DNA of 64,000 nucleotides, from the NCBI RefSeq assembly GCF_006717095.1, contig NZ_VFQE01000001.1:3224001-3288000 (forward strand). The letters are read 5' to 3'. The stretch's first letter is position 1, and every line of letters begins with the position of its first letter. Both the position numbers and the translations under genes were made by a program. The notes under the pieces were generated by a model, which was not told the origin of the DNA, made no database searches, and was given only the letters and a program-made list of their open reading frames with translations. The DNA is from Blastococcus colisei (GTDB lineage: Bacteria > Actinomycetota > Actinomycetes > Mycobacteriales > Geodermatophilaceae). Of the stretch, positions 297 to 63,064 are shown in pieces.

Positions 297-716
297 TCAG
301 CGCCGGGAGCGGGCGGCCTTCGGGGTGACGAGCCGGATGCCCGACCAGTCCTTGGCGGCGGAGATGCTGCTCGTCTGCGAGAGGCCGGCCGTGGGCGCGA
401 CCTCCGTGACGTCGCCGGGCTCGACGTGCCCGGGCCGGCCGGACTTGGGCACCAGCAGCCAGACGACGCCGTCGTCGGCCAGCGAGGTGATCGCGTCGGT
501 CAGCGCATCGAAGAGGTCACCGTCGTCCTCGCGCCACCACAGCACGACGACGTCGGCCACCTCGTCGGTGTCCTCGTCGACCATCTCGCCGCCGGAGACC
601 TCGATGATCGCGTCGCGCAGATCCTCGTCGGCGTCCTCGTCCCACCCGAGCTCCTGCACGACCATGCCCGGCTTGATGCCCAACCGGGCCGCCATGCCGG
701 TGCTGTCGACGCTCAT
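297..716 (-). CDS. DUF3052 family protein
   Basis: A protein of 139 residues starting MSVDSTGMAARLGIKPGMVVQELGW, very acidic in the middle (DEDADEDLRD, EDTDEVAD), with a C-terminal segment ending in basic residues. These are features of the actinobacterial DUF3052 family; its function is not known. The start at 716 is chosen because GGAGG lies 10 bases upstream and the family begins near this methionine; the frame is open for 49 codons further upstream but that part looks non-coding. It is the upstream partner of ahpE and is divergent from aceE, an arrangement conserved in mycobacteria. Confidence 0.8.
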   Translation of the reverse strand: MSVDSTGMAARLGIKPGMVVQELGWDEDADEDLRDAIIEVSGGEMVDEDTDEVADVVVLWWREDDGDLFDALTDAITSLADDGVVWLLVPKSGRPGHVEPGDVTEVAPTAGLSQTSSISAAKDWSGIRLVTPKAARSRR

Positions 717-1165
717 CCCTGCTGATCCTCCATGGAGTGGTCTGCTGCTGACCGGTCGTGGGGTGGATGGTGCCCTGTCGCGGCGCCGAGCGCGCGCGGA
801 CGCGTCACAGTCGCTGTTCCTCGTCGTCCCGACGAAGGAAGCAACCGCCGAGCCGGGCTGCACCGGCGATGTCGAGGGACAGGGCGCACGCGACGGACAC
901 GACCGGCGGGTGGCTTCCCCGCTGCCTGGTCATGTCACCCCTCTCGCTCTCTCCGACGTCCGCTGCCCGGATCGACTCCGGGTATGCGGTGCGGAACCCG
1001 TCACGCCGAGCCACCGCTGGCGGAAGCGTAGGGCATGACACGTCTGGCGCAAGCCGCCCGTAGCGGGCGACGACCCGTGGAGGACGATCAGCGGGAACGC
1101 ACGACTCGGCACACAAGCGGCCGGTGGACGTGACGACGGTGGCCCCGACGGGAGACGATGGACAC
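717..1165. other. Divergent intergenic region between DUF3052 and aceE
   Basis: About 450 bases separate the two divergent genes and should hold promoters for both. I see no clear -35/-10 pair or strong inverted repeat. All long open frames here look like GC-driven shadows, except for one short frame listed separately at 805-933. Confidence 0.5.
805..933 (-). CDS. Possible small ORF upstream of DUF3052
   Basis: An ATG at 933 is preceded by a purine-rich stretch (AGAGAGAGGGGTGAC) that could serve as a ribosome binding site. It opens a 42-codon frame beginning MTRQRGSHPPVVSVACALS with two cysteines. It lies in the leader of the DUF3052-ahpE unit, so it might be a leader peptide. I recognise no family and coding potential is uncertain; it may be chance. 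Confidence 0.2.
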   Translation of the reverse strand: MTRQRGSHPPVVSVACALSLDIAGAARLGGCFLRRDDEEQRL

Positions 1166-3985
1166 ATGAGCGCACCGCAGCAGTCGGACGGCGACCCCGC
1201 CCGCGAAGCCGGCACGCCCCGCGCGGTCATCACCGACGGGCTGCCGAGCCAACTTCCCGACACCGATCCCGACGAGACGCAGGAGTGGCTGGACTCGCTC
1301 GACGCCGTCGTCGACAACGCCGGCCGCGAACGCGCCCGGTACGTGATGCTCCGGCTGCTCGAGCGCAGCCGCGAGCAGCAGGTCGGCGTGCCGGGCCTGC
1401 GCAGCACCGACTACATCAACACGATCGCGCCCTCCCGCGAGCCGTGGTTCCCCGGTGACGAGCACGTCGAGCGCCGCATCCGCGCCTACATCCGCTGGAA
1501 CGCCGCGATCATGGTGCACCGCGCGCAGCGGCCGGGGATCGCCGTCGGCGGGCACATCTCCTCCTACGCCAGCTCCGCCTCGCTCTACGAGGTCGGCTTC
1601 AACCACTTCTTCCGCGGCAAGGACCACCCGGGCGGCGGCGACCAGATCTGGTTCCAGGGTCACGCCTCTCCCGGCATCTACGCGCGCGCCTACCTCGAGG
1701 GCCGGCTGAGCGAGCAGCAGCTCGACGGCTTCCGCCAGGAGGTCAGCCACCCCGGAGGCGGACTGTCCTCCTACCCGCACCCGCGGCTGATGCCGGACTT
1801 CTGGGAGTTCCCCACCGTCTCCATGGGCCTGGGCCCGCTCAACGCGATCTACCAGGCCCGGTTCAACCGCTACCTGCACGACCGCGGCGTCAAGGACACC
1901 TCCGACCAGCACGTCTGGGCGTTCCTGGGCGACGGCGAGATGGACGAGCCGGAGTCGCTCGGCGCGATCGGCCTGGCCGCCCGCGAGGAGCTGGACAACC
2001 TCACGTTCGTCATCAACTGCAACCTGCAGCGGCTCGACGGCCCGGTCCGCGGCAACGGCAAGATCATCCAGGAGATGGAGTCGTTCTTCCGAGGCGCGGG
2101 CTGGAACGTCATCAAGGTCATCTGGGGCCGGGAGTGGGACGCGCTGCTGTCCGCCGACCGCGACGGCGCCCTGGTCAACCTGATGAATCAGACGCCCGAC
2201 GGCGACTACCAGACCTACAAGGCCGAGGACGGCGCCTACGTCCGCGAGCACTTCTTCGGGCGCGACCCGCGGACCCGCAAGCTCGTGGAGAACATGAGCG
2301 ACAAGGAGATCTGGAACCTCTCCCGCGGCGGGCACGACTACCGCAAGGTCTATGCGGCGTTCAAGGCGGCACAGGAGCACAAGGGTCAGCCCACGGTCAT
2401 CCTCGCCAAGACCATCAAGGGCTGGACGCTGGGCAGCCACTTCGAGGGCCGCAACTCCACCCACCAGATGAAGAAGCTGACCGCCGAGGATCTCGCCGCC
2501 TTCCGCGACCGGCTCTACCTCGACATCCCCGACTCGGCGCTCGACAAGACCCTGCCGCCGTACTACAGGCCGGAGCCGGGGTCCGACGAGCTGGAGTACA
2601 TGCTCGAGCGGCGCCGTCAGCTGGGCGGCGCGGTCCCGCGGCGCCGCTCGGAGGCCAAGCTGCTCAAGGCCCCCGAGGACAAGGCGCTCGAGGTCCTGCG
2701 CCGGGGTTCCGGCAAGCAGGAGGTGGCGACGACGATGGCGTTCGTCCGCCTGCTGAAGGAGCTGCTCAAGGACAAGGAGCTCGGCCCGCGCTTCGTGCCG
2801 ATCATCCCGGACGAGGCCCGCACGTTCGGCCTCGATTCGCTCTTCTCGAGCCACAAGATCTACAACCCGGCCGGCCAGCGCTACACCTCGGTCGACCGCG
2901 AGCTGATGCTGGCCTACAAGGAGTCCGAGCAGGGCGTGATCCTGCACGAGGGCATCAACGAGGCCGGCTCCACCGCGTCGTTCACCGCCGTCGGCACCTC
3001 GTACTCCACGCACGGCGAGCCGATGATCCCGATCTACATCTTCTACTCGATGTTCGGGTTCCAGCGGACCGGTGACGGTTTCTGGGCGGCCGCCGACCAG
3101 ATGACGCGCGGCTTCATCCTGGGCGCCACCGCCGGGCGGACGACGCTCAACGGCGAGGGCCTCCAGCACGAGGACGGGCACTCGCTGCTGCTCGCCCACA
3201 CCAACCCCGCGGTGGTGTCCTACGACCCGGCGTTCTCCTTCGAGGTCGCCCACATCACCCGGGACGCCCTCGTGCGGATGTACGGCGACGACCCGGGCGC
3301 CCCGCTCGGCGGGCACCGCTCCCCCGACGTCATGTACTACCTGACGGTCTACAACGAGCCGTTCGTGCAGCCGGCCGAGCCGGAGGACCTCGACGTCCAG
3401 GGTGTGCTGGCGGGCATGTACCGCTACGCCGAGGGGCCGCAGAGCGCTGCTGACGGAGCCCACCCACCCAAGGCGCAGGTGCTCGCCTCGGGTGTCGCGG
3501 TGCCGTGGGCGCTGCGGGCACAGGAGCTGCTGGCCAACGACTGGAACGTCTCCGCCGACGTCTGGTCGGTGACCTCGTGGGGCGAGCTGCGCCGCCAGGC
3601 CGACGCGGTGGCCGAGCACAACCTCCTGCACCCCGAGGAGGACCCGCAGGTCCCCTACGTCACCTCGCGGCTGCAGGACGCCGAGGGCCCGGTCATCGCG
3701 GTGTCTGACTGGATGCGCGCGGTTCCCGACCTGATCGCGCCGTACGCGCCGCACGGGCTGCACTCGCTGGGCACCGACGGGTTCGGTCTCTCCGACACCC
3801 GCCCGGCGCTGCGCCGGCACTTCCACGTGGACGCCGAGACGATCGTCGTCCGCACGCTGGCCTCGCTGGCCGACTGGGGTCATGTGGACCGCTCGGTCGT
3901 GCGGCAGGCGGTGGAGAAGTACCAGGTCCGCGACGTGCAGGCGGCGCCGACGGACGAGCGTTCGGACCCCAGCCCGGCCACCTGA
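1166..3985 (+). CDS. aceE: Pyruvate dehydrogenase E1 component (homodimeric)
   Basis: A 939-residue protein of the homodimeric AceE type. It decarboxylates pyruvate with thiamine diphosphate and passes the acetyl group to the lipoyl domain of E2, linking glycolysis to the citrate cycle in the cytoplasm. The thiamine-binding motif is visible as [10 protein letters not shown] followed by [14 protein letters not shown], and conserved blocks such as [24 protein letters not shown] and [10 protein letters not shown] are present. Length matches the family (about 890-940). The start at 1166 (MSAPQQSDG) is preferred to an upstream in-frame ATG at 1124 because GGGAGA precedes it and actinobacterial AceE proteins begin with this kind of short acidic leader. 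Confidence 0.95.
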
Positions 3986-20059: not shown

Positions 20060-20084
20060 GGCGACGCGTCTCCTGTTCTTCGCG

Positions 20085-20222
20085 ACCGCCTACCGAGTTA
20101 GCTGACGGGTTCGGGCCGGAAGTGCCCTACTCACCCGCGTCCCCCAACGCGGGCGTGATTCACCCCAGTACTGCGGTGGTTCCCCGGTCCACGCGGCCAT
20201 CGGGCCGACGCGGTTCGGCGGG
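20085..20222 (-). promoter_or_regulatory. c-di-AMP riboswitch (ydaO/yuaA type)
   Basis: Read leftward, the leader contains the consensus blocks in order: GCCGAACC near 20219, ACCGGGGAACCA near 20187-20176, GGGGTGAAT at about 20166-20158, a GGGCA segment, then CCGAACCCGTCAGC and TAACTCGGTAGGCG ending near 20087. This is the ydaO-type aptamer, which binds two c-di-AMP molecules. It lies 26 bp before the start codon of the M23 peptidase gene; in actinobacteria this class commonly controls cell-wall hydrolase genes, usually switching them off when c-di-AMP is high. Confidence 0.93.
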
Positions 20223-20415
20223 GCCCGTTCGATGCCCTCGGGTGCGAGGGGCGGAGCTCGTCCGGGCCGCGGATGAAGCTACATCGGGATCGACCGGATG
20301 TCACAGGCGGATAACAAGACGCACGTCAGGTCACAACCGATGGTTCCGGTACCGCTCAGAGCACGTCGGGACGGCGCTCCGCGGGGCGGACGGCGTCTGG
20401 CAGGCTGTCGGCATC

Positions 20416-20492
20416 GGGGCGGTAGCTCAGCCGGTCAGAGCATGGGACTCATAATCCCTGGGTCGTGGGTTCGAGCCCCACCCGCCCCACCA
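20416..20492 (+). tRNA. tRNA-Met (CAT anticodon)
   Basis: Acceptor stem GGGGCGG (20416-20422) pairs with CCGCCCC (20482-20488), followed by discriminator A and an encoded CCA. D-loop TAGCTCAGCCGGTCAGAGC, anticodon stem-loop GGGA-CTCATAA-TCCC with anticodon CAT, and T-arm GTGGGTTCGAGCCCCAC are all complete. The acceptor stem and D-arm fit an elongator tRNA-Met better than an initiator. An integrase gene begins 71 bp downstream, so this tRNA 3' end is the probable attachment site. Confidence 0.95.
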
Positions 20493-48608: not shown

Positions 48609-48623
48609 GCGAGAATGATTCCC
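48609..48623. promoter_or_regulatory. Zur box 2
   Basis: GCGAGAATGATTCCC, directly before the ATG at 48624 of znuA. A -10-like TAGGGA lies just upstream at about 48599-48604, so bound Zur would block transcription initiation. Confidence 0.82.
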
Positions 48624-49604
48624 ATGACTCTTCGCACGGCACGATGGACCACCCTGGCGGCCGGGTCCGCAGCGACTCTGCTGATCGCGGGATGCGGGGG
48701 CGGCGGGGGCTCCCCGGAGAACGCCGCCACCTCGGGCGAGGGCCTCACCGTCCTCGCCGGGTTCTACCCCCTGGAGTGGGCTGCGAGCCGGGTCGGGGGG
48801 GACCTGGCATCGGTCTCATCGCTCACCCCGGCTGGAGCGGAGGCGCACGACCTCGAGCTGACCCCGCAGGACGTCGCCGCGGTCTCGGAGGCCGACCTGC
48901 TCGTCTACATCGAAGGGTTCCAGCCGGCCCTGGACGAAGCCGCCGAGAGCGAGGCACGTGAGGCGGCGTGGGATGCCGGCCAGGCAGCGAGCCTGACGCT
49001 CACCGCCGAGGAGGACGAGGACGGTCACGGCGCCGAGGACCAGCACGCCGACGAGGAGGAGGAGCACGCCGACGAGGGCGAGATCGTCGATCCGCACTTC
49101 TGGCTCGACCCGACGCGTCTGGCCGACGTCGGCGACGCCCTGGCCGAGCGCATGGGCGAGCTGGACCCCGACAACGCCGCCGCCTACGCGGAGAACGCGG
49201 TCGCGCTGCGCGCCGACCTCGAGGAGCTCGACGGCGAAATGCAGGAGGCGTTGTCGGGCTGCGCGATCAACACGCTCGTCACCTCCCACGATGCCTTCGG
49301 TTACCTCGCCGACCGGTACGGGTTCGAGGTGGTTGGCATCAGCGGACTGGACCCCTCCGAGGAGCCGAGCCCCGCACAGATGGCCGAGATCGCCGAGCTC
49401 GTGCAGGAGCGAGGCGCGACCACCGTGTACACCGAGACGCTGGTCGACCCGGCCGTGGCCGAGACGGTCGCCGCCGAGGCCGGGGTCGGGACCGCCGTGC
49501 TGGACCCCCTGGAGGGGCTGACCGACGAGTCCGCGGGCGACGACTACCTCGAGGTCATGCGGGCCAACCTGGAGACCCTGCGCGAAGGCCAGTCCTGCGC
49601 ATGA
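48624..49604 (+). CDS. znuA: ZnuA-type zinc-binding lipoprotein
   Basis: A 326-residue solute-binding protein of cluster A-I. The lipobox LLIAGC near residue 25 anchors it to the membrane. Zinc ligands are seen in PAGAEAHDLELTP, VDPHFWLDP and VTSHDAFGYLA, with acidic ETLVDP near the end. A flexible acidic, histidine-containing loop (EDEDGHGAEDQHADEEEEHA) is typical of zinc rather than manganese binders. ATG 48624 is preferred; ATG 48615 lies inside the Zur box. Overlaps znuC by 4 bp. Confidence 0.93.
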   Translation: MTLRTARWTTLAAGSAATLLIAGCGGGGGSPENAATSGEGLTVLAGFYPLEWAASRVGGDLASVSSLTPAGAEAHDLELTPQDVAAVSEADLLVYIEGFQPALDEAAESEAREAAWDAGQAASLTLTAEEDEDGHGAEDQHADEEEEHADEGEIVDPHFWLDPTRLADVGDALAERMGELDPDNAAAYAENAVALRADLEELDGEMQEALSGCAINTLVTSHDAFGYLADRYGFEVVGISGLDPSEEPSPAQMAEIAELVQERGATTVYTETLVDPAVAETVAAEAGVGTAVLDPLEGLTDESAGDDYLEVMRANLETLREGQSCA

Positions 49605-50413
49605 GCTCCACCCGGGCCGCGGAGCCGGCGGTCGGTGACGCGTTCCGGCTCCGCGGCGCGAGCATCGGCTACGGCGACGTGCCGGTCGTGAAGGACGTCG
49701 ATCTGACCGTGGCCCGTGGCGAGGCGGTGGCCGTGCTCGGGTCCAACGGCTCGGGCAAGACCACGCTCGTCCGGGGTCTGCTCGGTCTCGCCGCCGTGCT
49801 CGGCGGCGAGGTGCGCGTGCTGGGTCATCCGGTCGGGCACGCTAGGGTGCGCCGAGCCATCGGCTATGTGCCGCAACGGCACACCGTCACCGGGGCCGTC
49901 CCGGCCACCGTGCGCGAGGTGGTCAGCGTGGGCCGGCTGGCGCGGCTGGGCGTGTTGCGCCGGCCGGGCGCGGCCGACCGCGCCGCCGTGGCCAACGCCG
50001 TGGCGGCCGTCGGCCTCGCCGACCGGCTCCGCGACCCGGTCGCCTCGCTCTCCGGAGGTCAACAGCGCCGCGTCCTCGTTGCTCGGGCACTGGCCGCCGA
50101 GCCCGAACTGCTCGTCATGGACGAGCCCACCGCCGGCGTCGACGCGGCCAGTCAGGCGACCCTGGCAGCTGTGCTGGCCCGGGTCGCCGCCACGGGGACG
50201 ACACTGGTCGTCGTGACCCACGAGCCCGGGGCCCTGGCTGACGTCCTCACCCGCGCCGTCGTGGCCGATCACGGGCGGATCAGCTACGACGGCCCGCTCG
50301 CTGGAGCCGACGGCTTCGCCAGCAGTGATCACCACCATCCGCCGACGGGACCGGCCGGTGACTATTTGGAGCCCGAGCACCTCCGCTTGCGCGCCTCGGG
50401 ACGGGAGTACTGA
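49601..50413 (+). CDS. znuC: ZnuC zinc ABC transporter ATPase
   Basis: A 270-residue ATPase with Walker A GSNGSGKTTL, signature LSGGQQRRVLVARAL, Walker B LLVMDEPTAGVD and H-loop VVTHE. It powers zinc import through ZnuB. The C-terminus carries a DHHHPP segment, possibly a metal sensor. ATG overlaps the znuA stop; znuB follows after one base. Confidence 0.93.
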   Translation: MSSTRAAEPAVGDAFRLRGASIGYGDVPVVKDVDLTVARGEAVAVLGSNGSGKTTLVRGLLGLAAVLGGEVRVLGHPVGHARVRRAIGYVPQRHTVTGAVPATVREVVSVGRLARLGVLRRPGAADRAAVANAVAAVGLADRLRDPVASLSGGQQRRVLVARALAAEPELLVMDEPTAGVDAASQATLAAVLARVAATGTTLVVVTHEPGALADVLTRAVVADHGRISYDGPLAGADGFASSDHHHPPTGPAGDYLEPEHLRLRASGREY

Positions 50414-54856: not shown

Positions 54857-55077
54857 GCGCCGAGCGCGGTAGCCCCAGACCGCTTCGGAAGCGCCGACTG
54901 GAGGGGCCGGTCAGCTATGCGGACGTGCACCTGCTACGCACCTTCGTCTCCGACCGCGGCAAGATCCGCTCCCGGCGGGTGACCGGCCTGGACCCGCAGC
55001 AGCAACGCCAGGTGGCGCGGGCCATCAAGAACGCCCGCGAGATGGCCCTGCTCCCCTATCCGACGAGAGGCCGCTGA
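54853..55077 (+). CDS. rpsR: Ribosomal protein S18, cysteine-free
   Basis: A 74-residue S18 with the conserved core [18 protein letters not shown] and [18 protein letters not shown]. No cysteine, unlike mycobacterial zinc-type S18. GTG start in the GTGA overlap with rpsN. Last gene of the rightward ribosomal operon. Confidence 0.94.
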
Positions 55078-55363
55078 GCTGTTCCCGCGCCGCTCGAGGC
55101 GGGGTCCCCCACGCGGCGACCCGGCCTCAGCGCTCCCTGCGGACGACACTCGCCACGGTCCCCAGAGCGCTCAGGCCGAGCGCCGGCACGGCGACCACCC
55201 AGCGTGTTCCGCCCCAGCAAGACGGCCGCATCAGCGAGCGTGCGGCCCGCACTCCAGCGACTCGGCACCGGCACCCGATGCCGAGGAACCTCAGTCCGGT
55301 GAGGCCAGTGCCGCTGAGCGGATGCCGGATCACAAGTGGCACGACCACCGGCAGCTTCCGCGG
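55078..55363. other. Stretch between rpsR and a broken ATPase gene
   Basis: About 286 bases between convergent rpsR and the P-type ATPase relic. A short leftward frame with hydrophobic end (WVVAVPALGLSALGTVAS) is open from about 55348 to 55127, but it has no ribosome binding site and no family I recognise; it may be another relic. Confidence 0.4.
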
Positions 55364-56760
55364 TCAACTGTGCTTCGTTCGCCATGCCGAGGCGCGCAGC
55401 AGCCGTAGGCCGTTGAGGGCCACGAGCACCGTCGACCCCTCGTGGCCGGCGACCGCGAGCGGCAGGGGCAGCGTGCCTACCAGGCCCCAGACGACGAGCA
55501 CGCCGATGAGGACGCCGGCGATGAGGAGGTTCTGCAGCACCACCCGACGCGCACGGCGGGAGAGCGCCACGACCGCGGGCACCGCGGACAGGTCGTCGCG
55601 GACGACGACGACGTCGGCGCTGTCGAGCGCCAGGTCCGATCCGACGCCGCCCATGGCCAGACCCACGTCCGCGCCGGCCAACGCCGGGGCGTCGTTCACG
55701 CCGTCCCCGACCACCAGGACGCGATGACCGCCGGCCTGCAGGGCCCGGACGGCCTCGACCTTGTGGTGCGGCAGCAGGCCCGCCCGGAGGTCGCGGATGC
55801 ACCTGGGCGGCCACCGTGCGGGCCGCCTGCTCGTTGTCGCCGGTCAGCAGCACGGGCTCGCCGGGCAGCAGTCCGCGCAGGGCGGCGACGCCGGCGCGCC
55901 TCCGGGCGCACCCGGTCGGACAGGCCCAGCGCCCCGGCGGGTCGGCCGCCCACGGCGACCACGACCACGGTCCGCCCCTGGGCCCGGAGAGCGTCGATGG
56001 CGGCGGCCGACTCGGCGTCGAGGTCATCCCCCGGCGCCCGCACCTCCACGACCCGCCCCCCACGGTCGCCGACACGCCGGACCCGACGTGCGCCCGGAAG
56101 CCGGATGCCTGGGCCAGCGGGACTCCGCGGCCGACGGCCTCGCGGACGATCGCCCGGCCGACCGGGTGCTCGCTGGCGGCCTCCGCCGACGCGGCCAGGC
56201 GCAGCAGCTCGTCCTCCGAACCCACGGCGCTCCCGATGAGCCGGACCTCGACCACCGCCGGCCGGCCGTCGGTCAGGGTGCCGGTCTTGTCCAGCGCTAC
56301 GACGACGGCGCCGCCCAGTTGCTCCATCGCCACCGCGGAGCGCACGAGGACGCCGTGCCGACCGGCGTTGGCGATGGCCGACAGCAGCGGCGGCATGGTC
56401 GCCAGCACGAGCGCGCAGGGGGAGGCGACGATCATGAATGTCATCGCCCGCAGCAGCGCGTCCTCGACCGCCGAGCCCAGCAGCATCGGCACGCCGAACA
56501 CCGCCAGGGTGGCGACGACGACACCCAGGGAGTACCGCTGCTCCACCCGCTCGATGAACAGCTGCGTCCTCGCCTTGGTGGAGCTCGCCTCCTCCACCAG
56601 CGCACCGATGCGGGCGATCACCGACTCGCGCGCGTCGCGCTCCACCCGGACGACGAGCGCGCCGGTGCCGTTGACCGTGCCGGCGAAGACCTCGTCGCCG
56701 GCACGCTTGTCCACCGGCAGGGCTCCCCGGTGATCGAGGCGTGGTCCCCTGGTGCACGCC
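55364..56760 (-). pseudogene. Decayed P1B-type metal ATPase
   Basis: Reading leftward, ATPase segments appear in three frames: ASITGEP then (shifted) LPVDKRAGDEVFAGTVNG, FMIVASPCALVLATMPPL, VVALDKTGTLTDGRP, SEHPVGRAIV; shifted near 56050 to VVEVRAPGDDLDAESAA; shifted near 55905 to LPGEPVLLTGDNEQAARTV; shifted near 55800 to a final part with VVGDGVNDAPALAGADVGLA and two C-terminal helices. At least four frameshifts are needed, and nothing before ITGEP (the first membrane helices) is present. The SPC motif suggests a zinc/cobalt-type P1B ATPase. Not functional as it stands. Confidence 0.82.
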
Positions 56761-56869
56761 GACCGCCTGCACGGACCCCGCACCGCCGCGCCGACCGGCA
56801 CCGGAGCCCCCGCCCAGGCCTGACCGCTCCCCCGACGAACGGCGAAGATTTGCACCGCCGCCGTAACTT

Positions 56870-56884
56870 TCGAGAACGACTCTC
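56870..56884. promoter_or_regulatory. Zur box 4 (diverged)
   Basis: TCGAGAACGACTCTC, like the other boxes but with AACGACT in the core. The following bases make a perfect 8-3-8 inverted repeat GAGAACGA-CTC-TCGTTCTC (56872-56890). It lies 78 bp before the small secreted protein at 56962 and just upstream of the decayed ATPase, so either or both could have been its targets. Confidence 0.6.
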
Positions 56885-56961
56885 GTTCTCTCGGTGACGT
56901 CGCCTCCCCGCGACGCCAACACCGGCCCGGGCGACGCCCCGGCCACCACCGAGAGGAACGC

Positions 56962-57159
56962 ATGTCCCGCACCCTGGCCCGCACCGCCGTCCTCACCGCG
57001 ACCGCCGCGACGGCGCTGCTCGCCTCCGCCGGCACGGCCGCCGCCGCACCTGCGTGCAGCGACCCCGTCGCGGACGCACTGCACACGGTCCACGACACGA
57101 CCGGCGACCCGGCCGGTGCCGTGCACGCGGTCGAGGAGACCTACTGCTCGGTGAGCTGA
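56962..57159 (+). CDS. Small secreted protein with one cysteine pair
   Basis: A 65-residue precursor: signal peptide (LARTAVLTATAATALLASAG) cleaved after TAAAA, leaving about 37 acidic residues with two cysteines (APACSDPVADALHTVHDT ... EETYCSVS) that could form a disulfide or bind metal. GAGAGGA lies 4 bases before the ATG. It lies between a Zur-like box and a strong hairpin, upstream of the VWA-FtsH genes. No known family. Confidence 0.65.
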   Translation: MSRTLARTAVLTATAATALLASAGTAAAAPACSDPVADALHTVHDTTGDPAGAVHAVEETYCSVS

Positions 57160-57177
57160 CGCGCGAAGGCTCGAGCG

Positions 57178-57210
57178 CCGCTCCCCACCGGTAGCGCCGG
57201 TGGGGAGCGG
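57178..57210 (+). terminator. Terminator or attenuator hairpin
   Basis: CCGCTCCCCACCGG (57178-57191) and CCGGTGGGGAGCGG (57197-57210) form a perfect 14-bp stem with a 5-base loop, 18 bp after the small gene's stop and 38 bp before the GTG of the next gene. With so little room for a new promoter, partial read-through into the VWA-FtsH genes is plausible. Confidence 0.82.
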
Positions 57211-57248
57211 CTTCCCGCATGGCCGTCGGCCCGCACCGGAGGAGACCC

Positions 57249-60191
57249 GTGAGAACCGCAGCCACCCGCACCGGAGCCGCACTCGCCGTCCTGGCGCTGA
57301 TCGCGGCGGTGTCGGTGACCCTCGCCCGTCCGGTCACGGCGGCACCGGCCTGCGCACAGGTGGTCCCGGGACAGGTCGGCACGTGGACCGTGCGCTCCGC
57401 CCCGGCCTTCCCCACCGGCGACGCCGTACTCCTCGGGCACGCCGTCGACCCACGGCAGCCGCTGCGGCAGTACGCGACCAACGGGGTCTCCCTGCTGGTC
57501 ACCGACGACGGCTGCGCCTGGCGGGAGACGTTCCGGCTGCAGGAGGCGCCGTCGGCCGAACTGCCGGCGTCGTCGCTGACCGACCGCATCCTGGAGGTGG
57601 TCGTGCACCCGCGGGCACCCGGCCGCATGTGGCTGGTCGTCGCCACGGGGAAGGAGGTCGTGGACCGGATCCGCGTCAGCGGCCACCGCCCCGGCATCCC
57701 GCTGAGCCCTGGTTATGAGGAGAAGCGCGACGGCACCCAGACCCTGATCCTGTCCAGCGCGGACGCCGGAGCCTCCTGGACCGCGATGGCCGGCGGGCCG
57801 CTGGTCGGCGCATCCGGGCCTCTGGCGCCCGCCCCCAGCACCCCGGCGGTGCTCTACATCCCGACCTTCTCCGGCTTGTACGCCAGCCTCGACGGTGGCC
57901 GGACGTGGACGGCCCGCCCGCCGGCGGTCACGCCGCCGGCGGAGGGCCCGCAGCAGGGCGCACTCGGCGGGGTCCGCGGGGTCGAGACGGTGCAGGTCGC
58001 CGTCGACCCCACCGCGCCCAGCACCCTCTACGGCCGCAGCGGCACCGCGATCCGCCGCTCCGACGACGGCGGCCTGACCTGGTCGGTCTACCCCCTGCCC
58101 GCCGAGTCGACCACCGGCCCGTTCGTCGACCGCAGCCTCTCCGACGCCCGCCGCATCCTGGTCACCACCCAGACGTACTCCACCGACCCGGTGCGGGCCC
58201 TGTGGTTGCACCGGCCCGGTGCCGATGGCTTCGCCGAGGTCCCGGTCCCACCGGACACGATCGCCGGCGTGCCGCACCACGCGGTGTGGCACCCCACGCG
58301 AGACGAGCTGGTGATGAACACCTGGGACCGGGGCAACGGGGCAGCCTTCCCCGACGTCTCGCTGTACCGGTCGAACTCCCGCGGCACGGTCGAGGACATC
58401 AACGAGCTCGACCTCCCAGCGGTGCACGCCGTCGACGTCGACGACTACGGCACCTACCACCTGCACACCAGCAGCGAGATCGTCACGCTCAGCACGTCCG
58501 CGGCACCGGGCGCCGCGGCGCCCGACCTGGGCCCCCCGCAGGTCGAGATGAACCCGTTCGCCTACCGGCCCCCGGATCCGCCGCGTCCGGCCACGCTCGA
58601 CGGCCCTGCCGCCGTCGAGTTGAACCCCGGCGAGACCACCGAGCTGACCTGGACCCTGGACCTGCCCCGCCGACCCACGCCGCTGGACACCTACTTCCTG
58701 GTCGACACCTCCAACAGCTTCGAGCCCGACATCCAGGCCATGGCCGACGGCATGGCCGACGTCGTGCGCACCCTCACCGGGGCCGGCATCGACGTCCACG
58801 CCGGCATCGGCGAGCTCGGCACCCGGGAGGCGCGCCGCTACAGCCGGCTCGCCGACATCGCGCCGCCGGGCACGCAGCTGCAGCGCGGCTTCGAGCGGCT
58901 GCGCACCGGCGGAGGCTACGAGTCCCACCTGATCGCCCTGCACCAGGCGGCCACCGGCTCCGGCGTCGAGGGCACCAGCGGCCCCGCCGTGGCTGCCGGC
59001 CAGGATCCCAGCTGGCGTACCGGGTCGCTGCGCACGCTGGTGGTCATCACCGACGTCCAGTACTGGGACGAGGACGACCCGGAGGCGCCGACCCGGCAGC
59101 AGGTGTACGACGCCCTGGTCGCCCGCGACGTCCAGGCGATCGGCCTCGAGGTCGTCCGGGAGGGCGGCGACGACGGGGTGCCGGGCAGCTACGCGGCCGT
59201 CGAGGCCGCCGACGCGGCCTCCACGACGGCGCCGACCCCGGCGCGGGCCGATCTGGAGGAGCTGGCCGCGGCCACCGGCTCCTTCGCCCCGCCGGGAGGC
59301 GTCGACTGTCGCGCCAACGGGACGACGGAGATCGAGGCCGGAGACCCCATGGTCTGCACCACCACGGCGCTGCAGGTGGCCCGGATCTCCACGCTGGCCG
59401 ACGTGCTCACCCGCGTCCTGCTCGCCCAGGTCGACGAGCGGCCGGTGACCCTGCGCGCGACGGGCGACCCGCCCGTCCGCCCCATCTCCCCGGCCGACTG
59501 GCGGTATCCGGCCGTCGACGTGAAGTCCGACCAGCGGCTGGACTTCACCGCCGAGGTCGGCTGCACGGAGGCGCAGGCTGGGCAGGCGCTGCCGGTGACC
59601 GTCGAGGCCCTGCTCGGGAACGGCGCCGGCGGCGAGGACGTCGTGGCGACGGCGGTCACCCGGGTGCAGTGCGGCCCGTCGTCATCCCCGGCCGCCGTCC
59701 TCCCGGGGAACGAGCCTGGGGCCGCACCGCCAGAGCCCGCACTCGCTCCGGAACCCGCGCCCGCCGCAGGACCGCCGGCCGCCCCGCACGCCGCCGCCGT
59801 CGTCCCAGGGGTGCCGCCGGTGGCACCCATCCCTGTCGGCGGCACCGCGACCGCTCCGGGCAGCGCGCCCGGAACAGCCCCGGGAACGGCTCCCGGGGCC
59901 GCCCCGGCGCCGGCCGCCGGCGCGGCGACCGCCCTGTCACCCGGGGTGTCGGTGCAGGCGGCTCCGGCGGGCAGTCCGGCGGCGGCCGCCGCGACTCAGC
60001 AGGAGGACGGCCCGGCGCTGGCCCACGCATCGCTGCAGATGACCGCCCGGCAGCGACATCCGGTCGGCGCGCCTCCCTGGCTGCTGCCTGCGGCCGGACT
60101 GATGACCGCCGCGGCCGCCGCCCGGTTGCGCTTCCCGCGCGCACTCCGCACCGGACCCATCCACGCAACGACCAGAGAGCGGAGACGATGA
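57249..60191 (+). CDS. Secreted, membrane-anchored beta-propeller/VWA-domain protein
   Basis: A 980-residue surface protein. Order: signal peptide (VLALIAAVSVTLARPVTA), a BNR/sialidase-like beta-propeller of ~400 residues (repeats such as SLDGGRTW, SSADAGASW, SDDGGLTW), a linker, a VWA domain with MIDAS residues D486, S488 and S490 (FLVDTSNSFEPD) and D602 (VVITDVQYWDEDD), a beta-domain, a long Pro/Ala linker, and a C-terminal helix (WLLPAAGLMTAAAAARL) with a basic tail. GTG 57249 has GGAGGAG 5 bases upstream. The stop overlaps ftsH by 4 bp. A metal-dependent adhesion or scaffold role is likely; the partner is unknown. Confidence 0.8.
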   Translation: MRTAATRTGAALAVLALIAAVSVTLARPVTAAPACAQVVPGQVGTWTVRSAPAFPTGDAVLLGHAVDPRQPLRQYATNGVSLLVTDDGCAWRETFRLQEAPSAELPASSLTDRILEVVVHPRAPGRMWLVVATGKEVVDRIRVSGHRPGIPLSPGYEEKRDGTQTLILSSADAGASWTAMAGGPLVGASGPLAPAPSTPAVLYIPTFSGLYASLDGGRTWTARPPAVTPPAEGPQQGALGGVRGVETVQVAVDPTAPSTLYGRSGTAIRRSDDGGLTWSVYPLPAESTTGPFVDRSLSDARRILVTTQTYSTDPVRALWLHRPGADGFAEVPVPPDTIAGVPHHAVWHPTRDELVMNTWDRGNGAAFPDVSLYRSNSRGTVEDINELDLPAVHAVDVDDYGTYHLHTSSEIVTLSTSAAPGAAAPDLGPPQVEMNPFAYRPPDPPRPATLDGPAAVELNPGETTELTWTLDLPRRPTPLDTYFLVDTSNSFEPDIQAMADGMADVVRTLTGAGIDVHAGIGELGTREARRYSRLADIAPPGTQLQRGFERLRTGGGYESHLIALHQAATGSGVEGTSGPAVAAGQDPSWRTGSLRTLVVITDVQYWDEDDPEAPTRQQVYDALVARDVQAIGLEVVREGGDDGVPGSYAAVEAADAASTTAPTPARADLEELAAATGSFAPPGGVDCRANGTTEIEAGDPMVCTTTALQVARISTLADVLTRVLLAQVDERPVTLRATGDPPVRPISPADWRYPAVDVKSDQRLDFTAEVGCTEAQAGQALPVTVEALLGNGAGGEDVVATAVTRVQCGPSSSPAAVLPGNEPGAAPPEPALAPEPAPAAGPPAAPHAAAVVPGVPPVAPIPVGGTATAPGSAPGTAPGTAPGAAPAPAAGAATALSPGVSVQAAPAGSPAAAAATQQEDGPALAHASLQMTARQRHPVGAPPWLLPAAGLMTAAAAARLRFPRALRTGPIHATTRERRR

Positions 60192-62128
60192 CCGACACAA
60201 TGACCGAGGCGGACCCCGCCACGAGACCGCGCCGCGCAGAGAGCCTGCACGGCCGGCCCGCCACGAGCGACCGACGCAGGGAGCCCTCCCCCCGCCGGCG
60301 ACCGACGCTGCCCCGGCTGTCGCCACGCCACTGGCTGGTCGCCGCCGTGGTCGGACTGCTCCTGCTGTTCGGCGCGGCCCTGGCGTACCTCACGGCCGAC
60401 CCCTCCGGCCGCGAGGTCGGTCTCGACAGGCTGAGCGAACTCGCCGGCGCCGGGGCCGTCGAGAAGGCGACGTTCCTCGACGAGGACGCACGCGTCGTCG
60501 TCACGACGGCCGGTGGTGAGCAGTTCTGGGTCGCCTACCCCGCCAGCGACTCGGCCACCTCGGCGCTGCTGCAGGAGCTGACGGCATCGGGGGCCCAGGT
60601 GAGCGTGGACGCCCAGCCCGGCAAGGCAGTCACCCGGATCGTCGCCACCGGCCTGCTGCCGCTGATGGTCCTGGCGGCCCTGTTCGGGCTGTTCTTCGTC
60701 GGCGGCCGCGACGGCGGGGCCTCGGACATCCGCGGCTTCGGCACGCTGGGCAAGCGCGGCGGTGGGCGCGCCACTCCCCCGGCCGTCACCTTCGCCGACG
60801 TCGCCGGTGCCGACGAGGCGGTGACCGAGCTGCGCGAGGTGGTGGAGTACCTGAACGACCCCGGCCGCTACGCGGCGCTCGGCGCCAACCCGCCCAAGGG
60901 GGTGCTGCTGTTCGGGCCGCCGGGAACCGGCAAGACGCTGATCGCGCGCGCGACAGCGGGTGAGGCCGGGGTGCCGTTCTTCTCCGTGGCCGGCGCGGAG
61001 TTCGTCGAGTCACTGGTCGGCGTGGGCGCGGCCCGCATCCGCGACCTGTTCGCCAGCGTGCGGGCCGTCGCCCCCGCGATCGTCTTCATCGACGAGCTCG
61101 ACGCCGCGGGCCGGCGTCGCGGGGGCGCGGAGACCGGCGGTTCCGAGGAGCGGGAGCAGACGCTCAACCAGCTTCTGGTCGAGCTGGACGGGTTCGCCGC
61201 GTCGGCCGGCATCGTGGTGATGGGCGCCACCAACCGCCCCGACATCCTCGACCCCGCCCTGCTGCGGCCGGGCCGGTTCGACCGGCACGTGACGGTCGAT
61301 CAGCCCGACCGGGCGGGCCGGGAGAAGATCCTCCAGGTGCACAGCCGCGGCAAGCCGCTGGCAGCCGACGTCGACCTGGCCGTGGTCGCCCGGCGCACGC
61401 CCGGCTTCACCGGCGCGGACCTGGCCAACGTGGTCAACGAGGCGACGCTGCTCGCCATCCGCGAGGGTCGGTCGCTCATCGGCATGCCGGACCTGGTCGA
61501 GGCCATCGAACGGGTGCTCGGGGGGCCGCAGCGGCGAGGCCGCATCCTCGGTGATGAGGTGCGCCGCCGCATCGCCGTCCACGAGGCCGGGCACGCCGTC
61601 GTCGCCGGAGCGATGGGCCAGGAGGTGCACCGGGTGTCCGTGGTCTCTCGCGGCAGCGGACTGGGCACCGTCGGGCTCGCCGGCGGCGAGGAGGCCGTGC
61701 TGCTCACGGCCGCCGAGCTCGCCGACCGGATCACCGTGGCCATGTCCGGGCGCGCGGCGGAGGAGATCCTGCTGGGCTCGGCATCGACCGGCAGTGAGGA
61801 TGACCTGGCACGAGCCACGGAAATCGCACGAGAGATGGTGCTCCGGCACGGCATGAGTCCCACGGTGGGCCGGGTGCGGCTGACCGGCTCGGCGGCCGAC
61901 GTGTTCCTCGGCGGGCAGGCGGCCACCGGGGAACTGTCCCAGGACCTGCGCCGGCGGGTGGAGTCGGAGACCGCCCGGCTGCTGGACGCAGGCTTCGAGC
62001 GGGCCGCTGACGTCCTGCTCGCACATCGCGCCGTCGTCGAAGGCCTCGTCAGCGTCCTGCTGGCAGAGGAGTCCCTGGAGGGATCGGCGCTGGAGCGGCA
62101 CCTGCAGGCGGTCGTCCCGACGACCTGA
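60188..62128 (+). CDS. ftsH: FtsH-like membrane AAA protease, variant
   Basis: A 646-residue FtsH: two membrane helices (about 49-68 and 152-171) around an extracellular segment, AAA domain with Walker A GPPGTGKT (243-250), Walker B IVFIDELDA and SRH ATNRPDILDPALLRPGRFD, and the zinc protease motif HEAGH (465-469). The pore loop usually reads FVG; here it is LVG (276-278). It should degrade membrane or short-lived proteins with ATP. ATG 60188 overlaps the VWA gene stop, so both are made together. It is likely a specialised copy beside a housekeeping ftsH elsewhere, though that is inference. Confidence 0.9.
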   Translation: MTDTMTEADPATRPRRAESLHGRPATSDRRREPSPRRRPTLPRLSPRHWLVAAVVGLLLLFGAALAYLTADPSGREVGLDRLSELAGAGAVEKATFLDEDARVVVTTAGGEQFWVAYPASDSATSALLQELTASGAQVSVDAQPGKAVTRIVATGLLPLMVLAALFGLFFVGGRDGGASDIRGFGTLGKRGGGRATPPAVTFADVAGADEAVTELREVVEYLNDPGRYAALGANPPKGVLLFGPPGTGKTLIARATAGEAGVPFFSVAGAEFVESLVGVGAARIRDLFASVRAVAPAIVFIDELDAAGRRRGGAETGGSEEREQTLNQLLVELDGFAASAGIVVMGATNRPDILDPALLRPGRFDRHVTVDQPDRAGREKILQVHSRGKPLAADVDLAVVARRTPGFTGADLANVVNEATLLAIREGRSLIGMPDLVEAIERVLGGPQRRGRILGDEVRRRIAVHEAGHAVVAGAMGQEVHRVSVVSRGSGLGTVGLAGGEEAVLLTAAELADRITVAMSGRAAEEILLGSASTGSEDDLARATEIAREMVLRHGMSPTVGRVRLTGSAADVFLGGQAATGELSQDLRRRVESETARLLDAGFERAADVLLAHRAVVEGLVSVLLAEESLEGSALERHLQAVVPTT

Positions 62129-62161: not shown

Positions 62162-63064
62162 TCAGAGCAACAGGCTGACCTGGGAACGTATCCCCGGCCG
62201 AGCCGGGCCGACGGCGGGGCGACCGCGGCCCACGGCGGCGTTGCCGCGAGCGAGCAGTCGTCGCAGGATCAGGTGAGCACCCGGGGCACCACTAGCTCCA
62301 GCGAACAGCACGACGGCCAGAAGCACGATCGCCCCGCCCGCGGGCAGGCCCGCGTAGTAGGCAGCGGTCGTCCCGACGACCGCGACGACGGCGCCGATGG
62401 CCACCGCAGCCACCAGCGTGCCTCGGAAACTACGGGCCATCGCCATCGCAGCGGCAGCCGGAAGGACCATCAGGGCGCTGACCAACAACAGGCCCAGGAT
62501 GCGCATCGAGGCCACCACGGTCGCCGCCGTGGTGGCAGCGAACAGGAGGTTCAGCGGGACGACGGGCAGGCCCGCGGCGCGCGCGCACTCCTCGTCGACG
62601 GAGACGGCGAACAGCGCCCGGCGCCACCCGACGGTGACCGCCAGCACGGCGGCCACCGTCCCGCTGAGGACGAGGAGGTCGGTGCGGGTGGTCGTCAGGA
62701 TGGCGCCGAAGAGATAGGCATCCAGGTTCATCGAGCCGCCGGCGGGCGCCCAGGAGAGGACCACGACCCCGCCGGCGATGCCCCCCGCGAAGAGGATCGC
62801 CAGGAGGACGTCGGCCTCGCTGCGGCGCAGCCCTCGCAGCAGCTCCATCCCCACGGCTCCGGCCACGGCCACGGCCATCGCGGTGCCGGTCGGCGCCCAG
62901 CCGGCCACCACCCCGAGCGCCACGCCGGACAGCGCCACGTGCCCGATGCCGTCACCGATGATCGACATCCGACGCTGCACCAGATGCACCCCCACGGTCG
63001 GCGCCATGACACCCACCAGCACGCCCGCCACCAGCGCTGACTGCATGAAGCCGTACCTGAGCAC
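62162..63064 (-). CDS. znuB: Second ZnuB-type metal ABC permease
   Basis: A 300-residue ABC-3 family permease similar to the ZnuB at 50415 (LRYGFMQSALVAGVLVGVMA, GDGIGHVALSGVALGVVAG) but without its histidine-rich tail. The matching ATPase and binding protein are not beside it, so it may use those of znuAC or be the remainder of a second system. A GTG start at 63064 lies 42 bp from Zur box 5. It is convergent with ftsH. Confidence 0.88.
   Translation of the reverse strand: MLRYGFMQSALVAGVLVGVMAPTVGVHLVQRRMSIIGDGIGHVALSGVALGVVAGWAPTGTAMAVAVAGAVGMELLRGLRRSEADVLLAILFAGGIAGGVVVLSWAPAGGSMNLDAYLFGAILTTTRTDLLVLSGTVAAVLAVTVGWRRALFAVSVDEECARAAGLPVVPLNLLFAATTAATVVASMRILGLLLVSALMVLPAAAAMAMARSFRGTLVAAVAIGAVVAVVGTTAAYYAGLPAGGAIVLLAVVLFAGASGAPGAHLILRRLLARGNAAVGRGRPAVGPARPGIRSQVSLLL

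Follow-up and report, generated by a model that had tools for sequence, protein, structure and literature searches.

A candidate zinc-controlled cassette of Blastococcus colisei pairs an integrin-beta-like surface protein with an FtsH of a separate clade

Introduction

The animal integrin beta headpiece (PF00362) contains a VWA domain that is flanked by beta strands and carries MIDAS-type residues, and integrins further have a propeller on a separate alpha subunit, a PSI/EGF stalk, and signalling cytoplasmic tails. An element of the integrin headpiece has also been described in bacteria, and there it is the propeller of the alpha subunit (Chouhan et al. 2011, PMC3192720). FtsH proteases (TIGR01241) form a second well-known family, with two N-terminal hydrophobic segments, an AAA domain, and an M41 domain with an HExxH motif. 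Replacement of the aromatic residue of the FtsH pore with Ala drastically lowers unfolding (PMC5511170). Propeller-vWA proteins and FtsH-type AAA proteins come together in the MoxR-vWA FtsH ternary systems, which have a MoxR gene and a double-AAA FtsH (Kaur et al. 2020, PMC7159879). In a review of actinobacterial Zur regulons, which share with the locus described here the presence of a Zur-like box, the Zur targets of Corynebacterium include secreted and surface-anchored proteins, and a search of the review text gave no occurrence of FtsH (PMC6103462).

Here we describe a three-gene cassette from the soil actinobacterium Blastococcus colisei that resembles parts of all of these. It lies in a stretch of 64,000 nucleotides, referred to below as the window (positions 3224001-3288000 of contig C1, from a genome of 5.16 Mb), and it encodes a small secreted protein, a VWA surface protein, and an FtsH. 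The hybrid/VWA part of the surface protein has animal integrin beta as its best profile and fold match, with aligned MIDAS-type residues and, in the predicted model, strands on both sides of the VWA, but the family is bacterial, and the protein carries a BNR propeller on the same chain. The integrin-type propellers already described from bacteria are reportedly of the FG-GAP type; the window protein, in contrast to those alpha-type elements, combines a beta-type head with a GH74/BNR-like propeller. Its FtsH has the domain layout of the family, yet differs from other FtsHs in belonging to a separate clade, in having Leu for the pore aromatic, and in being genetically tied to one surface protein. 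The 15 ORFs scanned in and around the locus included no match to a MoxR model, and its FtsH is not of the double-AAA kind. The component families are known; the combination is, as far as we have seen, not a known kind of system: the open-access literature yielded no description of a bacterial integrin-like VWA protein paired with an FtsH, nor of an FtsH with Zur or VWA. An earlier note on this DNA likewise knew of no described system linking a MIDAS-containing surface protein to a dedicated FtsH in a zinc-limitation region. The cassette looks like an undescribed, zinc-controlled surface system.

Results

The cassette and its surroundings

The features of the locus are collected in Table 1. Two elements of the earlier note, a 65-residue secreted cysteine protein and an ftsH start overlapping the VWA gene, are present as described, the ftsH ATG lying within the VWA stop codon (ATGA).

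Table 1. Features of the cassette and its flanks, in window coordinates
Feature	Position	Strand	Description
Zur-like 15-bp box CGAGAACGACTCTCG	56871..56885		Promoter region of the cassette; weight matrix and Markov test
Small secreted protein	56962..57159	+	65 aa; signal-like N-terminus, two Cys
Perfect hairpin	57177..57211	+	15 pairs, 5-nt loop; gap between small gene and VWA gene; counted on the sequence, then folded
VWA surface protein	57249..60191	+	980 aa from GTG (990 aa if started at the upstream ATG 57219); predicted signal peptide, BNR propeller, integrin-beta-like hybrid and VWA with MIDAS-type residues, low-complexity linker, weakly hydrophobic segment, basic tail
FtsH	60188..62128	+	646 aa; two N-terminal hydrophobic segments, AAA, M41 (HEAGH), pore loop ESLVG
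ZntA-like P-type ATPase remnant and ArsR-type tail (outside the cassette)	55059..56822	-, then +	Remnant (- strand), deletion scar at ~56746, then ArsR-type tail (+ strand)
Second zinc-type ABC permease (downstream)	62162..63064; also 63107		Own strong Zur-like box

The genes upstream of the cassette encode a CobW-type GTPase, the binding protein and permease of a zinc ABC system, a regulator of the Fur family (likely Zur), and an MRF GTPase, as well as the ribosomal proteins L28, L33, S14, and S18 (L33 assigned by eye). Past the second zinc-type permease, a heavy-metal P-type ATPase gene runs beyond the window end (L140 2160-2993). The ZntA-like ATPase upstream of the box is truncated and frameshifted in the window, and the ArsR-type identity of its neighbor was assigned by eye. 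In B. saxobsidens, a species of the same family, both frames are open 5' of the box (L046 11212-13690; a 761-codon ZntA-like ATPase and an ORF that is ArsR-type by eye); relative to this locus, about 1 kb is gone from the window and the two ends are fused. That the box was kept while its upstream neighbors decayed argues that it serves the cassette.

Distribution and linkage

The VWA protein is rare in the window's family, with matches in 2/112 genomes, and was matched in 10/397 genomes of the order sample, 11/24 of family f10, and 7/396 of the phylum sample, each at the E-limit of its own search. Duplicate records were counted once, and fragments or weak matches (L091-L094, L119 (L132), and L122) were left out. 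Searches of plasmids with the VWA protein and with the FtsH gave no match, as did a single-protein scan of genome contigs. In a search of 20 other genomes, weak matches in 9, each of the window's genus (E 2e-6 to 5e-5), covered only ~100 propeller residues and were set aside as other propeller proteins. In one of the searches, the sole match titled outside Actinomycetota is a distant relative of the VWA part on a Rokubacteriota MAG contig (L108 7220-7903).

An ftsH gene adjoins the VWA gene at 17 loci (the window, L046, L059, L062, L063, L064, L065, L087, L088, L089, L090, L095, L100, L105, L125, L127, and L130), so the adjacency in relatives on which the earlier note had staked its proposal beforehand is conserved. 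The pair occurs in three gene orders, with the VWA gene first in the window, B. saxobsidens, a Nocardioides MAG, and the genome G653, with ftsH first at twelve loci, and with the two genes divergent at one (G133); at several of these loci the genes overlap or are 2 bp apart. The cassette in its full order, i.e., box, small Cys/His protein, VWA protein, and FtsH, is found at the four VWA-first loci, and thus recurs in a few distant relatives. In B. saxobsidens (DSM 44509) it is located on NZ_POQT01000002.1, and only there and in the window does a zinc island surround it. In the Nocardioides MAG (JAUYLL010000112.1) it sits among unrelated genes, and neither there nor in G653, a distant actinobacterium of another family in the same phylum, was a zinc transporter gene seen by eye beside the cassette. 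The pair loci of other branches have neither the box nor the small gene.

At 14 further VWA-family loci (L057, L058, L060, L061, L086, L097, L098, L101, L103, L108, L110, L111, L112, and L129) there is no ftsH within the DNA seen, and at six of them (L057, L058, L061, L103, L108, and L112) a contig end cuts the flank close by; L108 comprises the VWA part only, and the frame of L110 looks broken. The surface protein may therefore stand without an adjacent FtsH. Five genomes (G120, G227, G434, G543, and G606) each carry a linked VWA copy alongside at least one that is unlinked, and the VWA tree mixes linked with unlinked copies (L057 and L058, for instance, fall inside the window branch) while the FtsHs remain one clade, as described below. 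This pattern is consistent with an ancient pairing and subsequent duplication of the VWA gene, and it implies that an unlinked receptor may share the FtsH or do without it.

In family f10 (L063, L064, and L087-L094), the ftsH-VWA pair lies in a context unlike zinc; a TetR-type gene follows it in several loci, and trehalose-synthesis-like genes also follow where visible (by eye). A MoxR-like ORF was seen by eye ~7 kb beyond the VWA gene of L063. Two contig ends of G120 (L057 1-284 and L058 1-2498) are possibly one tandem of two VWA-family genes, since by eye one starts with what could be the C-terminal part that the other lacks.

The surface protein

A profile of the hybrid/VWA region built from 16 family members retrieved 60 PDB matches at E up to 0.001, of which 59 were integrin beta (best E 1.8e-11) and the remaining one was collagen VI (5e-5). 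When the whole VWA protein was searched against PDB, GH74-type propellers came first (2e-19), followed by integrin beta-8 (4e-9). The Pfam Integrin_beta model matched 13/16 members and the generic VWA model 9/16 (E up to 0.01), and the Pfam scan of the 16 members, as opposed to what the PSI/EGF stalk of integrins would give, contained no EGF or PSI model. The window protein itself had no match to Pfam Integrin_beta, and it matched the integrin-beta-like model vWA_SIBA-E below that model's cut-off. Its propeller, which lies on its own chain, matches GH74, BNR, sortilin, and Ycf48 proteins.

Two predicted structures were generated with AlphaFold2, model 1 from 11 sequences (pLDDT 63.2) and model 2 from 28 sequences (pLDDT 84.8). 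In model 2, predicted beta strands flank the VWA domain on both sides, and a run of predicted beta strands at fragment residues 4-384 is taken as the propeller. Integrin beta led both fold searches; in Foldseek, the six first matches were integrin beta headpieces and the seventh was a GH74 enzyme. About 400-480 columns aligned with integrin headpieces at low TM-scores (TMt <=0.50) and rmsd values of ~6-20 Å, mostly 11, which indicates that the domains match better than their arrangement. By these profiles and predicted models, the VWA protein joins a BNR propeller and an integrin-beta-like head in a single chain. The propeller/VWA surface protein of 980 residues in the earlier note was correct, and understated only in that its head resembles that of integrin beta.

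The positions that we take, by alignment and integrin residue numbering, to match the MIDAS residues of integrins (DxSxS, Glu, and Asp) are largely kept, with the first Asp in 28/28 rows, the Glu in 25/28, and the TD-like Asp in 27/28. The window protein holds every MIDAS-type residue; in L090, L105, L125, L127, and L130 the second Ser, Glu, or Asp differs, Thr replaces the second Ser in L087, and the G653 protein is without the second MIDAS serine. The earlier note had metal at the MIDAS and HEAGH sites tying the two proteins to metal supply; for the MIDAS a link to zinc is not supported, as such sites usually hold Mg, Mn, or Ca.

At the C-terminus, 24/24 intact members finish with a 17-mer that is hydrophobic to varying degrees, followed by a short basic tail, and these tails, unlike the signalling cytoplasmic tails of integrins, are 12-29 residues long. 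The 17-mer of the window protein is weakly hydrophobic (mean 1.27, the second weakest), with that of Nocardioides weaker still (1.00). By eye, many VWA members also have an AM[STV] plus Arg motif ~10-20 residues before the hydrophobic segment, and the order of motif, hydrophobic stretch, and basic tail resembles a C-terminal sorting signal.

The partner FtsH

The window FtsH scores 618 bits against TIGR01241 (cut-off 600), with an AAA domain and an M41 domain containing HEAGH, and has N-terminal hydrophobic stretches at residues 46-72 and 147-175. It is 44% identical to the genome's other FtsH, and "variant FtsH" in the earlier note was an apt description. In a careful tree of 32 rows, 7/7 partner FtsHs formed one clade (support 100/99), and quick trees of 39 and 41 rows kept 14 and 16/16 placeable partner FtsHs, respectively, in one clade (SH-aLRT 99 for the 16). 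The FtsH of L127 is cut by a contig end, so that it was left out of the trees and its pore is not visible. A housekeeping FtsH is ruled out by these trees, in which the partner FtsHs stand apart from housekeeping and other FtsHs.

The partner FtsHs also differ at the aromatic position of the pore (PhiXG), which is Leu in 16/16 with a visible pore; among 24 other FtsHs with a visible pore, the same position is Phe in 21, Ile in 3, and Leu in none. Because Ala at this position cuts unfolding (PMC5511170), the natural Leu points to a functional difference, and such a non-aromatic pore could have weak or altered unfolding. Distances among FtsHs correlate with those among VWA proteins over 14 pairs (Mantel test, r 0.86, permutation p 0.0001; L125, L127, and L130 not included), a correlation in which co-evolution and shared descent are not separated. 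One locus, L059, has a second odd FtsH (481-3849) on a long branch sister to the module clade; by eye, it adjoins an ORF with B-box-like Cys/His repeats.

Zur-like boxes

We scored boxes with a weight matrix built on six other Zur-like boxes from the window and the B. saxobsidens locus, with the tested boxes left out. In the window, CGAGAACGACTCTCG scores 18.3 and ranks fifth among the 15-mers of the 64 kb, where the first background match scores 11.5. The four higher-scoring 15-mers are all at zinc or ribosomal-protein genes; three are training sites, and the one at 48610 is not. At the orthologous position B. saxobsidens has the perfect palindrome CGAGAACGGTTCTCG. Upstream of the cassette, the Nocardioides MAG keeps TGAGAATGAGTCTCG, the best 15-mer of 18.8 kb, and in G653 the best match of 18 kb, CGAGAACCGTTCTGG, precedes this same gene trio. 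In G133 the two best matrix matches of 19 kb sit between the divergent VWA and ftsH genes. First-order Markov versions of each locus's own upstream region reached the best box in 0/3000 cases for the window, 0/3000 for B. saxobsidens, 1/3000 for Nocardioides, 0/3000 for G653, and 3/3000 for G133. A candidate Zur-type operator is thus found in the promoter at 5/5 window-type loci with ftsH (4/4 full triads and the divergent G133), and the diverged Zur box that the earlier note placed at 56870 proves real by score, by the Markov comparison, and by its conservation at the triad loci.

The exact sequence GAGAANNNTTCTC occurs twice in the B. saxobsidens genome, once as the cassette box and once at a proA-type ORF with no obvious zinc gene. 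It also occurs twice in the Nocardioides MAG, where one site separates an MRF-like GTPase gene from rpmG, as would be expected for a Zur target. In G653 and G133 it is found nowhere in the genome, and the Zur of each may favor a different sequence. A Zur consensus published for mycobacteria resembles these boxes without being identical (PMC7174638).

None of the nine ftsH-first loci whose upstream DNA is visible has a Zur-like box there (highest score 7.8; L063, L090, and L127, which complete the twelve, begin at a contig end), and none was found at the four unlinked VWA loci scored (L057, L058, L060, and L086; highest 4.5). The missing box at 9/9 ftsH-first loci indicates that zinc control is limited to some branches and is not general to the pair. 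The connection to zinc limitation drawn in the earlier note is accordingly supported by Zur-like boxes at the triads and the divergent fifth locus, but does not extend to the ftsH-first loci. Judged from its operator sequences, the cassette is probably Zur-repressed and would respond to zinc.

The small protein and the hairpin

The small protein occurs at four loci, always as the first gene of the triad, and its mature part keeps the pattern C...A...H...T...H.VE..YC, the invariant residues being C, A, H, T, H, V, E, Y, and C (two Cys and two His). Its dN/dS over three pairs is 0.43, 0.25, and 0.50, which suggests constraint, weakly given the ~65 codons. The two Cys probably form a disulfide, and the protein may be a ligand or cofactor of the surface protein. 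Among 396 phylum genomes, strong matches occur only in that sample's two triad genomes; four weak matches outside the triad (E 1.4e-4 to 8.3e-4) are taken as chance because they lie inside longer frames. A search of the other VWA-family loci with the small-protein profile gave no strong match.

The hairpin between the first two genes is perfect, as the earlier note had it, although it has 15 pairs and not 14. B. saxobsidens has a different 15-pair hairpin at the shared position, and the Nocardioides gap between the small gene and the VWA gene has no hairpin of that kind. We therefore rejected the hairpin as a conserved element, its position being common to the window and B. saxobsidens only, and the suggestion that it meters read-through is not supported; it is possibly a weak terminator or attenuator.

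Discussion

Four points have been established by computation: the VWA-ftsH pairing, the single clade of partner FtsHs, the resemblance of the fold to integrin, and the conservation of the box. The reading that we prefer, tentatively and at a little short of even confidence, is that the three genes form a Zur-repressed cassette in which FtsH sets the surface level of an integrin-like receptor. Zinc-loaded Zur would repress the cassette and, when zinc is scarce, would leave the box so that the products are made, a step proposed because of the conserved boxes. The first product would be a tiny secreted Cys/His protein pinned by a disulfide. The second would be a single-chain receptor, anchored in the membrane once, at its C-terminus, and ending in a short basic tail on the cytoplasmic side, whose propeller and hybrid/VWA part would form a metal-dependent, ligand-binding head that binds something on a surface. 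The third, a private FtsH, would seize the surface protein, or its partner, by the tail or anchor and remove or process it, and so set the amount of receptor left on the surface. Control of the surface protein by FtsH is plausible, and we infer it from linkage, clade, and topology.

An alternative that we consider unlikely, though the strongest of its kind, is that FtsH and the VWA protein are co-regulated and not enzyme and substrate, with FtsH handling other membrane proteins under stress and the integrin-like protein acting alone. FtsH works as a general protease of the membrane, the Leu in the pore loop suggests that the range of substrates has changed, and the 14 loci with no ftsH in view would agree with independence; on the other hand, a single FtsH clade accompanies the VWA protein across three gene orders and several families.

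Quite improbable, in our estimate, is a zinc-capture system in which the small protein would bind zinc outside the cell and dock on the propeller/VWA protein as its surface receptor, with FtsH serving in maturation or recycling. The Zur-like box at 4/4 triad loci, the two invariant Cys and two invariant His, and the zinc ABC genes that surround the window cassette would all suit it. However, two invariant His are few, the two Cys are more likely in a disulfide, the Nocardioides and G653 cassettes have no zinc transporter gene beside them (by eye), and pair loci elsewhere lack both box and small gene.

Membership in the MoxR-vWA FtsH ternary conflict systems is suggested by the shared propeller, vWA, and FtsH, and some of those systems fuse an N-terminal propeller to vWA (Kaur et al. 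2020, PMC7159879). We hold it to be very improbable, as 15 ORFs in 47-63 kb, on either side of 49602-50324, gave no match to a MoxR model, the FtsH has a single AAA with M41, and the vWA protein has a signal-like N-terminus and an integrin-type VWA. That accessory genes merely drifted into a zinc island, as their presence in 2/112 family genomes might hint, deserves next to no credence, since linkage at 17 loci with a single FtsH clade rules out chance adjacency and the same boxed cassette lies outside a zinc island, as far as seen, in Nocardioides and G653.

If the preferred reading of FtsH-set receptor display is true, the cassette would provide a relative of the integrin beta head that comes with its own propeller and can be studied by bacterial genetics. 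It would also provide a dedicated protease for which that receptor is the one obvious partner, and a natural FtsH in which the pore aromatic considered essential for threading is gone. The actinobacterial zinc-starvation response could then include a surface-contact system with a specialised FtsH. A broader version, speculative and distinctly doubtful, is that actinobacteria have integrin-like receptors in which a single chain carries both the propeller and the betaI head, that a private AAA+ protease switches their surface display by drawing on the cytoplasmic tail, and that one branch has added a mini secreted ligand under Zur and would change contact or adhesion when zinc runs out.

Elsewhere in the window, a c-di-AMP riboswitch was detected on the - strand at 20072-20230 (63 bits against a gathering threshold of 38), with a tRNA-Met adjoining it at 20416.
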